From Planctomycetota bacterium (GTDB taxonomy: Bacteria; Planctomycetota; Planctomycetia; Pirellulales; UBA7805): a stretch of 41,391 bases of DNA. This document shows, piece after piece, positions 593 to 34,744 of this stretch (positions are counted from its first letter, which is position 1; each line of letters begins with the position of its first letter). The notes under the pieces were generated by a model, which saw nothing but the letters and a program-made list of their open reading frames with translations, was not told the DNA's origin and searched no databases. The translations under genes and the position numbers were made by a program. Where the stretch lies: the NCBI GenBank assembly GCA_021413705.1, contig JAIOPX010000173.1, positions 1 through 41,391 on the forward strand, given 5' to 3'.

Positions 593-1152
593 GCGTCGGA
601 CTCCTGCGAGAGTTGTTTTTCGACGCATTCGGCCAATTTCAGCCGCGCTCGACGCACGACGGCTTTGAGCGCCTCGATCGGGCGCCCCAGATCCGCGGCT
701 ATGGCGGCAATCGTTTCCTGGCCCGAGTAATAACGAATGACGGCCGTGCGCTTCGCCTCGTCCAGTTTATCCAGACAATACTGGATGGCGTGGGACCGCT
801 CTGCCGATTGCCCCGCCGATTCGGCAAAGGCCTGACTGACCACGTCGCAGAACTCCTGCCGCTCAAACTGCGGGTGTCGCCCCCGCTTTTTCCGCATCGT
901 AAGTACGAAGAAGTAGGCGATGGAGCGCGACCAGCCCCCAAAATCTTTCGCGGGATCGTGCTTGTCGAATTGGTCCCACAGCCGCAGCCGGGTGTCTTGC
1001 AAAATCTCCTCGGCGTCGGCCCAGTTGGGCACCAGTGCCAAGACATAGGAGCGCAAATCGACCTCGTGCAGACCCAGCAGGCGCATGAATTCGCGCGTCC
1101 GCTGAGCGTTCTGTTCAACAGGAGAGGTAGATTCGTCCACGCGTCGTCTCAC
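589..1152 (-). CDS. ECF RNA polymerase sigma factor, Rhodopirellula/Verrucomicrobium type
   Basis: This is a 187-residue sigma-70 family protein of the extracytoplasmic function class. Region 2 is recognisable around residues 30-90 (RSYVLALVPNWADAEEILQDT, then W and DPAKDFGGWSRSIAYFF), the part that binds the -10 element and core polymerase. Region 4 lies near residues 120-180 (LDKLDEAKRTAVIRYYSGQ, then a helix-turn-helix ending RRARLKLAECV). The start is a GTG at 1152; a second GTG lies four codons further in, and neither has a clear ribosome site. The next gene downstream is its FecR-like partner, joined by a four-base overlap, so the pair forms one signalling module. The specific signal is unknown. 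Confidence 0.9.
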   Translation of the reverse strand: MRRRVDESTSPVEQNAQRTREFMRLLGLHEVDLRSYVLALVPNWADAEEILQDTRLRLWDQFDKHDPAKDFGGWSRSIAYFFVLTMRKKRGRHPQFERQEFCDVVSQAFAESAGQSAERSHAIQYCLDKLDEAKRTAVIRYYSGQETIAAIAADLGRPIEALKAVVRRARLKLAECVEKQLSQESDA

Positions 1153-1270
1153 GGAGATTTAGGCGGCCTGGGGTGCCGCTCCAGAAACGTCCCCATGATA
1201 TAGGCCGAAATGGCCAAAACGGTGCAAAAGAAATTTGGCGAGAGCCGAAATTATAGCGGGAGTCATCAAA

Positions 1271-1384
1271 GTAGGTCCAGTTTGCCGAACTGGACCTTTC
1301 GTTGACGGCCATGACGATGGGGACGGCTATTTCTCGATATCAGGGGCCGAATTTACAAGGTCCGCCTCGGCAAGGCGGACCTAC
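1271..1384. repeat. REPIN-like pair of inverted palindromes (TGCCG-loop family), copy 1
   Basis: Two hairpins face each other. The left one (1273-1297) has 10-base perfect arms AGGTCCAGTT and AACTGGACCT around the loop TGCCG. The right one (1358-1382) has arms AGGTCCGCCT and AGGCGGACCT around CGGCA, so read on the minus strand it has the same loop TGCCG. Both have GT immediately outside, so the whole unit begins GTAGG and ends CCTAC. Three of the ten stem pairs differ between the hairpins and every change is compensated. The pair fills most of the gap between the sigma gene at 1152 and the stop at 1396. A second, more worn pair is at 33750-33869. Confidence 0.8.
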
Positions 1385-1395
1385 ATCAGCATCTT

Positions 1396-3258
1396 CTACG
1401 GCCACCACCCTCGCAGAAACTGCTCCTCCGTACCGTCATAGCGGGCCTCGGCCAGGAACTCCATGCCAAGCTGGTCCCCCCAGGTGTAGTAGATCACCAG
1501 CTTGCCGTCGTGTTCGCAAAAATCGATGTCGGAGTTGTTGATGTCACGAGCCTTGGCAATCAGGTCACGCTCCGACTTCGTCAATTTGTCGTTGGCGATC
1601 TTCTTGTCTTCTTCCGGCTTGAATCGCAGCACAGGATTCCGTGGGCTTGGCTCCCAGTGGATTAAATCGCGCGAGCGGACCACCCTGGTTTCGTAGCGGG
1701 CTTCTCCTTCTTCCTTGAGCTTCTCCAGATAGAAGTTGTAGTACCAGCCGTCGAGATAGCGCAGCGCGTGGGGGGCGGTGTAGCGGTCCTTGGCGTAGAC
1801 GCACTCCGGCGGCGTGATGGTCCACTTCTTCAAGTCGGGGCTGGTGGCGAAGCGGGCGGTGAAACGTACGCCCGCCTCTTCCGGCGGGAGCCAGATTTCG
1901 AACATCAGCACATACTTGCCGTCGGCCTTGGCGATCGAGGTGTTGCAGATGCCATACTTGCCCGGCTCGATGGCGTACCACGACTCCCAGTTCTTGAGAT
2001 CCTTGGAGGCAAAGACTTTGACGTGCTTTCCGTACCAACCCCCTTCACGTCCGCTGCCGGTTACGTAGACGGTGTCGCCATCGACGAATGCGCTGCCAAA
2101 GCGATAGTCCTTGGCGAACGGCTCCGTCGCTTCGCCTGTTTTGACGTCGATGAAGCGAAAATGGTCGTAGCCGAGTTTGTTGTTCGGATCGCGGATCGGT
2201 TTTTTCGGATCGTTTTCGCGCACCCATTCAAAGCGGTAGAGCTTTCCTTTGAACATGATCGGCGTGGTTTCGACCATGTGGGTGATAATCGTGCCGAGCC
2301 GGTCGATGCGCGGGCGTCCCTCGGCATCGACGGGGCCGCTCTTGGCGTTCTTCGCCGCTGCGGCAGCGTTTGCCGGTGCTGCCGGTTTCACGCCGGCGGC
2401 CTGCTTGGGAAAATCCTTGGCGAAGCGGTTCTTGAGTCGGTCGAGATTCGCATCGACCAGATAGATCTTGCCGCGGATGAGCCGGTGTTCGCCGGCCTTG
2501 AGGCCACCGATCCGAAAGTCATTGTGCAGGCAGCCGACCACGCCTTGGAAAACTTCCTGATACGGCTCCCAGGCCAGGGCCAGAATCTTCTTGCCGTCGG
2601 CTGAATAGCAGCCGGTTAGCCCGCATGACGGAACCACGGTGCTCAGAGGCCGCGGATTGACGTCTTTTTTATTGACATGAGCGGGACAAAACACTTGCCC
2701 GGGCGTGTAGCGAGCGTTTTCGGCCCAAGGCTCCGTCGGCAGACGCTTCACCTCGCCACCGACCATCAGGAAGCAATTGTTGATGTACTTTGGCTGGATG
2801 GCGTTGGCATCCTTGGGGTCTGTGCCGGCGAACTTGGCCACGCGCACACAGGGCTGCGCCCATTGTACGTCGGAATCGGTCTTCGTCGGATTGAGCGCGC
2901 CGAGTTGGAAATAGACTTCATCAGGACCGGCCGAAATCGTATGGGTGACAACGACACCGTCGTCGAGCGTGCTGCGCAGCACCAGCGGCAGGTCGTTGGC
3001 GTTGGGCTGGGCCGAAATGCACTCGGTGCGATGATTGATCACCGATTGCCCCCAATCTCGATCCGTCGAGCCGGAGCGCACGAAGGCTTCGATGTAGTTG
3101 ACCTCGATCGGGCCGTTGGGAAGCTGATCGCCCGAGATTTTGAGGCGATTGTCTTGCCAGGTGACGCTCAAGGGCTTGTCGGCCCTTGCGGTTGTCCCCT
3201 CCCCTGCCCTGGTGACGATGCTCAGGATGAGGAGACAAAAAGTAATGCGACTCAGCAT
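1396..3258 (-). CDS. Secreted GH43-like beta-propeller protein
   Basis: This is a 620-residue secreted protein. The ATG at 3258 is preceded by GGAG at a good distance and opens a signal peptide (MLSRITFCLLILSIVTRAGE), so this start is preferred over an in-frame one 40 codons upstream. The N-terminal domain (about residues 30-285) is beta-rich and not recognised. A low-complexity Ala/Pro/Lys linker follows at about 290-310. The C-terminal half contains repeated blade-like units such as GSAFVDGDTVYVTGSG, VFASKDLKNWESW, RFATSPDLKKWTI and VVRSRDLIHWEPS, the pattern of five-bladed propellers in GH43/GH32-type glycoside hydrolases and related sugar-binding proteins. Catalytic carboxylates could not be assigned, so hydrolase activity is an inference. 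The gene stands alone. Confidence 0.75.
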   Translation of the reverse strand: MLSRITFCLLILSIVTRAGEGTTARADKPLSVTWQDNRLKISGDQLPNGPIEVNYIEAFVRSGSTDRDWGQSVINHRTECISAQPNANDLPLVLRSTLDDGVVVTHTISAGPDEVYFQLGALNPTKTDSDVQWAQPCVRVAKFAGTDPKDANAIQPKYINNCFLMVGGEVKRLPTEPWAENARYTPGQVFCPAHVNKKDVNPRPLSTVVPSCGLTGCYSADGKKILALAWEPYQEVFQGVVGCLHNDFRIGGLKAGEHRLIRGKIYLVDANLDRLKNRFAKDFPKQAAGVKPAAPANAAAAAKNAKSGPVDAEGRPRIDRLGTIITHMVETTPIMFKGKLYRFEWVRENDPKKPIRDPNNKLGYDHFRFIDVKTGEATEPFAKDYRFGSAFVDGDTVYVTGSGREGGWYGKHVKVFASKDLKNWESWYAIEPGKYGICNTSIAKADGKYVLMFEIWLPPEEAGVRFTARFATSPDLKKWTITPPECVYAKDRYTAPHALRYLDGWYYNFYLEKLKEEGEARYETRVVRSRDLIHWEPSPRNPVLRFKPEEDKKIANDKLTKSERDLIAKARDINNSDIDFCEHDGKLVIYYTWGDQLGMEFLAEARYDGTEEQFLRGWWP

Positions 3259-33749: not shown

Positions 33750-33869
33750 GTAGGTCTCGCCTGCCGGGCGTGACATGGGATGCAGGAAAAACACCAAGCG
33801 TTTGCTATTCCCTATTCGAATCTCCGCGCGGCGACAGTACCCAGGCACCTTCCGGCAGAAGGAGCCTAC
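33750..33869. repeat. REPIN-like pair of inverted palindromes (TGCCG-loop family), copy 2
   Basis: Two imperfect hairpins face each other. The left one begins GTAGG at 33750, with arms AGGTCTCGCC and GGCGTGACAT around the loop TGCCG (33762-33766; eight of ten pairs). The right one (33843-33867, read on the minus strand) has arms AGGCTCCTTC and GAAGGTGCCT around TGCCG (nine of ten pairs), and GTAGG at its outer edge. The unit fills nearly all of the gap between prmC and murA. Its right edge supplies the prmC stop TAG and its left edge abuts the murA ribosome site. Confidence 0.7.
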
Positions 33870-34744
33870 TTTCGCGTCGCTTGTACAACTCTTGCCAGCC
33901 CTGCCAGGTCTTTCACTATCGGCCCCAACTCCAAACGCGCATCGGCCGCTACAATTTGTTCAGCGGCGTCGGCGATCATGGGACTGATCTCGAACAACAG
34001 CGAGCCCCCCGGCAGAAGTCGGTCGGCCGATCCGGGTACGAGTCGCTCGATCACTTCCGTACCGCGCGGGCCGGCCACCAACGCGCCCCGTGGTTCATGT
34101 TCCCGCACGTCCACGGCCAGCGTCTGCATCTCGCTTTCCGAAACGTAGGGTGGATTGCTCACAACAAAGTCGAACCGGGCGTCAGGCGGCAGCCCGTCGA
34201 GCAAATCTCCCTCGACAAACTGAATCCGATCCTGTACTCGATGATCCTGTGCATTTTGCCGGGCAACCTCGAGCGCTGCGGGGCTGATGTCGATTGCGGT
34301 GACGCTGGCCTGCGGAGCATGTTTTGCGGCACAAACTGCTAAGATACCGCTCCCCGTGCCGACGTCCGCAATGCGAATCGGTCTGCCCGGCGCATCTCGC
34401 TTAATCAGGTCCAACAACGCGATGAGGAGAAACTCTGTTTCCGGTCGCGGAATGAGCACGTCCGACGAAACGCGAAACGACAGGGCATAAAATTCCTTCC
34501 GCCCGACCAGATAAGCCACCGGCGTTCCGTCAGCCCGGCGGCGCACCAACTCGCGAAAAGCGGTGCGAGTCTCATCGCTGGCCGCTTCGGCATAGGCCGT
34601 GTACAGGTCGATCCGCTGGCAACCTCGGGCTTCCGCCAGCAATACCTCGGCGTCGAGCCGCGGACTATCAGCGCCATGTTTGGCCAAGTAGTCGGCCGTC
34701 CAACTCAGCAGCCGGCCAATGGTCCAGACTTCGGTTTCAGGCAT
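33866..34744 (-). CDS. prmC: PrmC (HemK), release-factor glutamine methyltransferase
   Basis: This 292-residue enzyme methylates the GGQ glutamine of release factors RF1 and RF2. The N-terminal helical domain (about 1-85, LLSWTADYLAKHGADSPRLDAEVLLAEA) is typical. The SAM-binding motif is ADVGTGSGILAV (about 125-136) and the catalytic NPPY lies in DFVVSNPPYVSESE. RPETE in LIPRPETEFLL is the conserved block before the methyltransferase domain. It follows prfA, its substrate gene, after 115 bases, which supports the call. The stop codon TAG comes from the end of the palindromic repeat. Confidence 0.95.
   Translation of the reverse strand: MPETEVWTIGRLLSWTADYLAKHGADSPRLDAEVLLAEARGCQRIDLYTAYAEAASDETRTAFRELVRRRADGTPVAYLVGRKEFYALSFRVSSDVLIPRPETEFLLIALLDLIKRDAPGRPIRIADVGTGSGILAVCAAKHAPQASVTAIDISPAALEVARQNAQDHRVQDRIQFVEGDLLDGLPPDARFDFVVSNPPYVSESEMQTLAVDVREHEPRGALVAGPRGTEVIERLVPGSADRLLPGGSLLFEISPMIADAAEQIVAADARLELGPIVKDLAGLARVVQATRK

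Follow-up and report, generated by a model that had tools for sequence, protein, structure and literature searches.

Probable REPINs with a constant TGCCG loop and covarying stems in the genome of a probable planctomycete, and a RAYT gene flanked by related repeats

The paired hairpins at positions 1271-1384 of the window (the whole stretch of 41,391 nucleotides that was analysed) most probably form a REPIN that is one member of a large genome-wide population. The element belongs to the GTAG REP superfamily, with GTAG at the 5' foot, a stem of 6-13 bp, and a short loop. There are good grounds to believe that such a REPIN consists of two head-to-head GTAG REPs, which spread together, and that it is a non-autonomous passenger depending on an HUH-Y1 transposase (RAYT/TnpAREP). 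A sequence-only reading of this DNA had called the element REPIN-like, which is supported by its copy number and by the excess of head-to-head pairs. The window corresponds to contig C176 of a 6.58-Mb draft genome that is 89.5% complete. This genome includes a DUF1559 gene, a family that we take to be typical of planctomycetes and that makes the assignment plausible.

Read directly, the plus strand gives GTAGGTCCAGTT-TGCCG-AACTGGACCT from position 1271, and the minus strand gives GTAGGTCCGCCT-TGCCG-AGGCGGACCT from position 1384. The first hairpin (1271-1297, plus strand) is a REP of arm type B from the family named here F1, with a GTAG head, a perfect stem, a TGCCG loop, and CT at the 3' foot. 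The second (1358-1384, minus strand) is inverted relative to it and represents arm type A, the commonest form. Both were identified by reading the sequence, by DNA folding, and by the genome scan, and they enclose a spacer (1298-1357) of a kind that is poorly conserved between copies. Each stem has 10 perfectly matched pairs when the A.T pair formed by the A of GTAG is counted, which confirms the original description of two inverted hairpins with a common head and loop and perfect 10-base stems. When folded as single-stranded DNA, the element forms two hairpins that stay separate, with z-scores of -5.4 and -5.9 on the two strands, and none of 200 shuffles was as stable. Of the two minus-strand genes between which it lies, one encodes a sigma factor and the other, of 660 aa, has its stop codon 11 bp from the element. 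No Rfam match was found over the whole window.

The two arms differ at stem pairs 6-8, numbered from the first G-C pair, and all three differences are compensated (A-T/G-C, G-C/C-G, and T-A/C-G). The earlier claim that three of the ten pairs differ, each with compensation, is thus correct, but these differences are not fresh in this copy, since A and B are two old arm types found throughout the genome. The common B arm is AGTC..GACT, and the copy at 1271 has a single private compensated pair, C-G to T-A, adjoining the loop.

Many copies exist, an outcome in favour of the sequence-only reading. The pattern GTAGGN6YTGCCGR has 130 matches in the 6.58-Mb genome against 6 for a reversed-pattern control, and one added base between head and loop abolishes the excess (8 against 7 for the control). 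Within the window, GTAGGN7TGCCG occurs exactly four times, in the two arms of 1271-1384 and in those at 33750 and 33869. A search with GTAGGTCC-N13-GGACCT, which leaves the loop and the inner stem unconstrained, returned 62 exact matches; 61 of these carry TGCCG, and in 56 the inner stem pairs throughout (hand count). Since loop and inner stem were free to vary in this search, the constancy of the F1 loop is not a search artefact. A uniform scan of nearly all the loci found, admitting a TGCCG-type loop with at most one mismatch and a stem with at most two, identified 136 REPs with stems of 9-10 bp and loops of 5 nt. The GTAG head is present in 129 of them, and a T lies directly 3' of the stem in 134, which leaves CT at the foot.

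The proposal of stem covariation around a fixed loop is also borne out. Among the distinct F1 hairpins, pairing is seen in 90.4% of stem cells, whereas shuffling of the 3' arms gives 70.2%, and 78.5% in the highest of 2000 shuffles; the observed level is partly selected, because the scan admitted only stems with at most two mismatches, and the search with the inner stem left free agrees with it. In the group with a T.T mismatch, 82.9% of stem cells are paired, compared to 54.0% after shuffling. At each of F1 pairs 6-9, two or three different Watson-Crick types are found, although these counts refer to sequences rather than to independent events, the A and B arm types being old.

The arrangement of the REPs is equally constrained. 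Between neighbouring REPs up to 200 bp apart, 46 pairs are head-to-head, 2 tail-to-tail, and 1 on the same strand, a strong form of the inverted-pair excess on which the REPIN interpretation had been made to depend. The lengths of the resulting REPINs fall mostly at 109-114, 120-123, and 130-136 bp. Nearly every REPIN in the genome combines one arm of each type: F1 includes 30 F1A/F1B pairs, one F1A/F1A pair, and no F1B/F1B pair, and the second family, F2, contributes 12 F2A/F2B pairs. Independent single REPs landing together would yield many same-type pairs; judging from the sequences, then, the doublet, rather than the single REP, is most likely the spreading unit. Arm pairing is looser in a sister species, where 5 of 15 pairs are of the same type. 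In an alignment of 33 F1 REPINs, spacer conservation was poor except in a subgroup of 131-bp copies. Two such copies with near-identical spacers lie in tandem at L081:4926-5188, the second with its first head base changed (TTAG), and are likely to reflect a recent local duplication.

The second REPIN of the window, at 33750-33869, belongs to F2. Its A' arm (33750-33776, plus strand), found by the pattern search of the window and the scan, has a T.T mismatch at pair 5 and a slightly decayed foot. Its B' arm (33843-33869, minus strand), found in the same ways and by open reading frames, has a T.T mismatch at pair 4, and its GTAG provides the stop codon of prmC (33866-34744, minus strand). F1 stems are perfect and begin with GGTCC; F2 stems follow G[GC][CT]CTCGC. 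or G[GC]CTCC.TC, with an invariant T.T mismatch that lies either at pair 5 or at pair 4. The pair-4 form of this mismatch is also found in a few stems of the type GGTTCC. The GTAG head, the TGCCG loop, and the T right after the stem (CT foot) are common to both families. In about 12 F2 REPs, of both arm types, the loop is enlarged by a common insert placed straight after TGCCG (GCTGCAAGTCCCGGCGCGCCGGG), so that the loop is not absolutely fixed. This 23-nt insert occurs at L076, L098, L109, L110, L111, and L134, with related forms at L075, L084, L088, L092, L104, and L122, and it has the appearance of a small site-specific insertion, or else of a loop variant that recurs.

In the draft genome 11 Y1_Tnp genes were found. 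One of them, the RAYT gene of contig C108 (L075:2684-3385, minus strand), scores 84.6 bits against a cut-off of 80 for NCBIfam REP_Tyr_transpos and is immediately flanked on either side by TGCCG REPs, all of them F2 and all with the mismatch. A Y1 HUH transposase gene with family REPs alongside constitutes a REPtron, and the C108 RAYT with its F2 REPs is one. A RAYT gene, for which the sequence-only reading had proposed to look, is thus present: the C108 gene lies between REPs with the same head and loop, but these are F2 and not F1. When the surroundings of all 11 Y1_Tnp genes in this 89.5% complete assembly were scanned for hairpins of any kind, the F2 REPtron of C108 was the only one to emerge, and none of the genes is directly flanked by F1 REPs. 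The Y1 genes of contigs C67 and C146 each lie about 1.8-2.0 kb from F1 REPINs; this proximity is probably due to chance, as unrelated ORFs lie between and no gene-REPIN segment is conserved.

The only other genome of the genus examined, that of the sister species (G001), holds 162 pattern matches and an orthologue of the C108 RAYT that is 67% identical. It too has TGCCG REPs on both sides, which show other stems (GGTCTCGCC and GGTTCCGCC) with the same T.T mismatch. The RAYT loci were located by protein and not by REP pattern, and their TGCCG loops are thus independent evidence. Two sister-species REPINs, at L226:2044-2153 and L239:1993-2102, combine a perfect-stem arm (GGTCCGGCT) with a T.T-mismatch arm (GGTTCGGTC) and link the two families. 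In the remaining genomes from the family and order, matches to the pattern do not rise above background, and the TGCCG version appears confined to the genus among the genomes searched. GTAG or GTGG hairpins, with other stems and loops mostly of 3-4 nt, flank 17 of 28 more distant RAYT homologues on both sides (L195-L222; hand count), which makes REPtrons ordinary in the order. A RAYT scan of public genomes returned one distant relative, with 34% identity, in an Opitutaceae MAG.

Under the likeliest mechanism for such a passenger of a RAYT, each REP would fold when the DNA becomes single-stranded. The RAYT would read the unpaired GTAG head and the TGCCG loop, and in F2 also the T.T mismatch, and would cut at a CT step, such as that at the 3' foot of the hairpin. 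The dimer would then be copied or moved to a new site, mostly intergenic and often at the 3' end of a gene. If the protein reads the head, the loop, and the fact of pairing, the letters of the stem may drift as long as both sides change together. Binding, cutting, and mobility of F1 and F2 REPs by a RAYT are deduced from these features, and F1 would be served by the C108 RAYT or by one missing from the assembly. Among studied systems, the RAYTs of perfect-stem REPs require a specific loop base and cut at CT, and the E. coli-type RAYT reads a bulge (PMC8266576). The constant loop and covarying stem of F1 fit the first mode and the T.T mismatch of F2 fits the second with the loop unchanged, which suggests that head and loop may act as the address while the stem would mainly need to pair.

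Whether F1 has an enzyme of its own bears on two alternatives. According to the first, possible though on the doubtful side, F1 has no RAYT and depends on the F2 enzyme, with the C108 RAYT mobilising both families in trans. F1 and F2 agree in head, loop position, stem length, and CT foot, and the mixed sister-species REPINs join one perfect and one T.T arm. However, studied REPtrons use different RAYT groups for perfect-stem and mismatch REPs, introducing or repairing a stem mismatch impairs the activity concerned (PMC8266576), and every REP adjoining the C108 gene has the mismatch. The second, which is rather unlikely, regards F1 as a relic whose RAYT was lost and whose copies only decay in place. 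The lack of an F1-flanked RAYT among the 11 Y1_Tnp genes, the very divergent spacers of most F1 REPINs, and the 44 of 136 REPs without a partner would agree with such decay. Yet 62 F1 arms keep the exact outer stem, above what would be expected of long-unselected relics, and the genome is incomplete, with repeats breaking assemblies where a REPtron would lie. The near-identical tandem copies at L081 also speak against a relic, although local duplication could explain them.

Beyond the passenger model, a single RAYT lineage might use the TGCCG loop and GTAG head as its address and accept both perfect and T.T-mismatched stems, although this broader proposal is unlikely. If true, stems would be free to diverge between arms, families, and species, and the difference between the two arm types would be maintained to let each REP fold alone instead of within one long hairpin. 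The present split between loop-reading RAYTs of perfect stems and mismatch-reading RAYTs would also break.

The REPs lie preferentially between genes: 99 of the 136 fall in no called ORF, which is true of about 17% of random points drawn from those loci (rough ORF calling). Over both species together, 27 of 188 REPs lend the TAG of their head to a flanking ORF as its stop codon, and prmC in the window and the sister-species RAYT itself are among the ORFs concerned. Pfam identifies several of the ORFs that receive their stop in this way as clear genes (6PGD, rhomboid, cytochrome b, and a cytidylyltransferase). This position, often straight after stop codons, together with the stems being kept paired, could also be expected of intrinsic terminators or mRNA 3'-end stabilisers under RNA-fold selection, with copy similarity as a by-product. 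Such an origin is very unlikely, given that a search for a GC-rich stem-loop followed by a T run found no terminator-like site at window positions 1100-1500, and that termination leaves unexplained the fixed GTAG head, the loop, the dimer orientation, the A/B pairing, and the RAYT flanking. A secondary RNA role for the hairpins may nevertheless exist. In the sister species, the orthologue of the gene beside 1271-1384 has another gene as its neighbour, and its 3' region contains no GTAG REP; in a genome of the same family the murA-prmC gap lacks a REPIN. Both loci agree with insertion, but they are too distant to show a clean event.

Several known systems resemble these repeats. For GTAG REPs, the text of Di Nocera et al. 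(2013, PMC3733652) already describes complementary stem variation in stems of 6-13 bp, head-to-head dimers, enlarged-loop members, a position after genes with TAG used as stop codon, and a planctomycete member in Rhodopirellula baltica. The suggestion that a planctomycete version with this loop was undescribed accordingly holds only as far as the particular loop and the genus, which look new; the same text gives mostly 2-4-nt loops and, its consensus figure aside, does not contain TGCCG. With this qualification for PMC3733652, a 5-nt TGCCG loop common to perfect and mismatched families was not found in the literature examined. The REPINs of Pseudomonas fluorescens SBW25 (Bertels and Rainey 2011, PMC3116915) are likewise inverted REP doublets of about 100 bp with conserved ends and a variable spacer, in which the doublet is the replicating unit, singlets are remnants, and RAYTs are linked. 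They differ in that here each REPIN has two different stem types, the pairs number about 50 rather than hundreds, and the main family, F1, has no RAYT assigned. The E. coli BIMEs with Y and Z REP types, as cited in PMC6006769, are also heterodimers of two related REP types, with a stem mismatch as in F2 and a RAYT flanked by several REPINs. In contrast, the stems of F1 have no mismatch and the loop stays constant, and only a non-specific role has been suggested for the E. coli loop (PMC8266576). The Group 3 REPtrons of Stenotrophomonas and Marinomonas (Corneloup et al. 2021, PMC8266576) share the perfect palindrome, the loop base read by the transposase, and CT cutting, following the same logic as the constant loop and free stem of F1. 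However, the Stenotrophomonas loop has 3 nt and a stem mismatch harms cutting there, whereas here TGCCG is also found on T.T-mismatched stems beside the RAYT.

The most interesting point is the one loop common to perfect-stem and mismatched-stem families. The general picture of REPINs is unchanged, and the well-documented REPIN/RAYT pairs are extended to a lineage outside Proteobacteria. With head and loop fixed while stems change, both inside one genome and across two species with 67% identity between their RAYTs, the system offers a natural experiment that could be used to test which parts of a REP the transposase reads.

Other repeats were also seen. A 16-bp palindrome (TCCCGGCGCGCCGGGA) is present, in full or as its 14-bp core, at L057:2360, L063:1544, L066:5310, L082:10135, L123:1482, and L129:1394, either within decayed F1 REPs, where it stands in for a section of the hairpin, or at sites without a REP; it was not seen in the sister-species loci and may be an assembly artefact. 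In the sister species, another GTAG hairpin family (GTAGCGTGGGTGCTTGCACCCACG, loop CTTG) lies near Y1_Tnp genes at L191:1401-2072 and L183:1316, and a similar family is found flanking a RAYT of genome G134 (L198). A different perfect hairpin element with an inverted overlap, GCTTCCCCT-TGCCG-CCCGCCACGGCGGGCGGCA-AGGGGAAGC, at L053:1511-1558, is possibly another repeat type.
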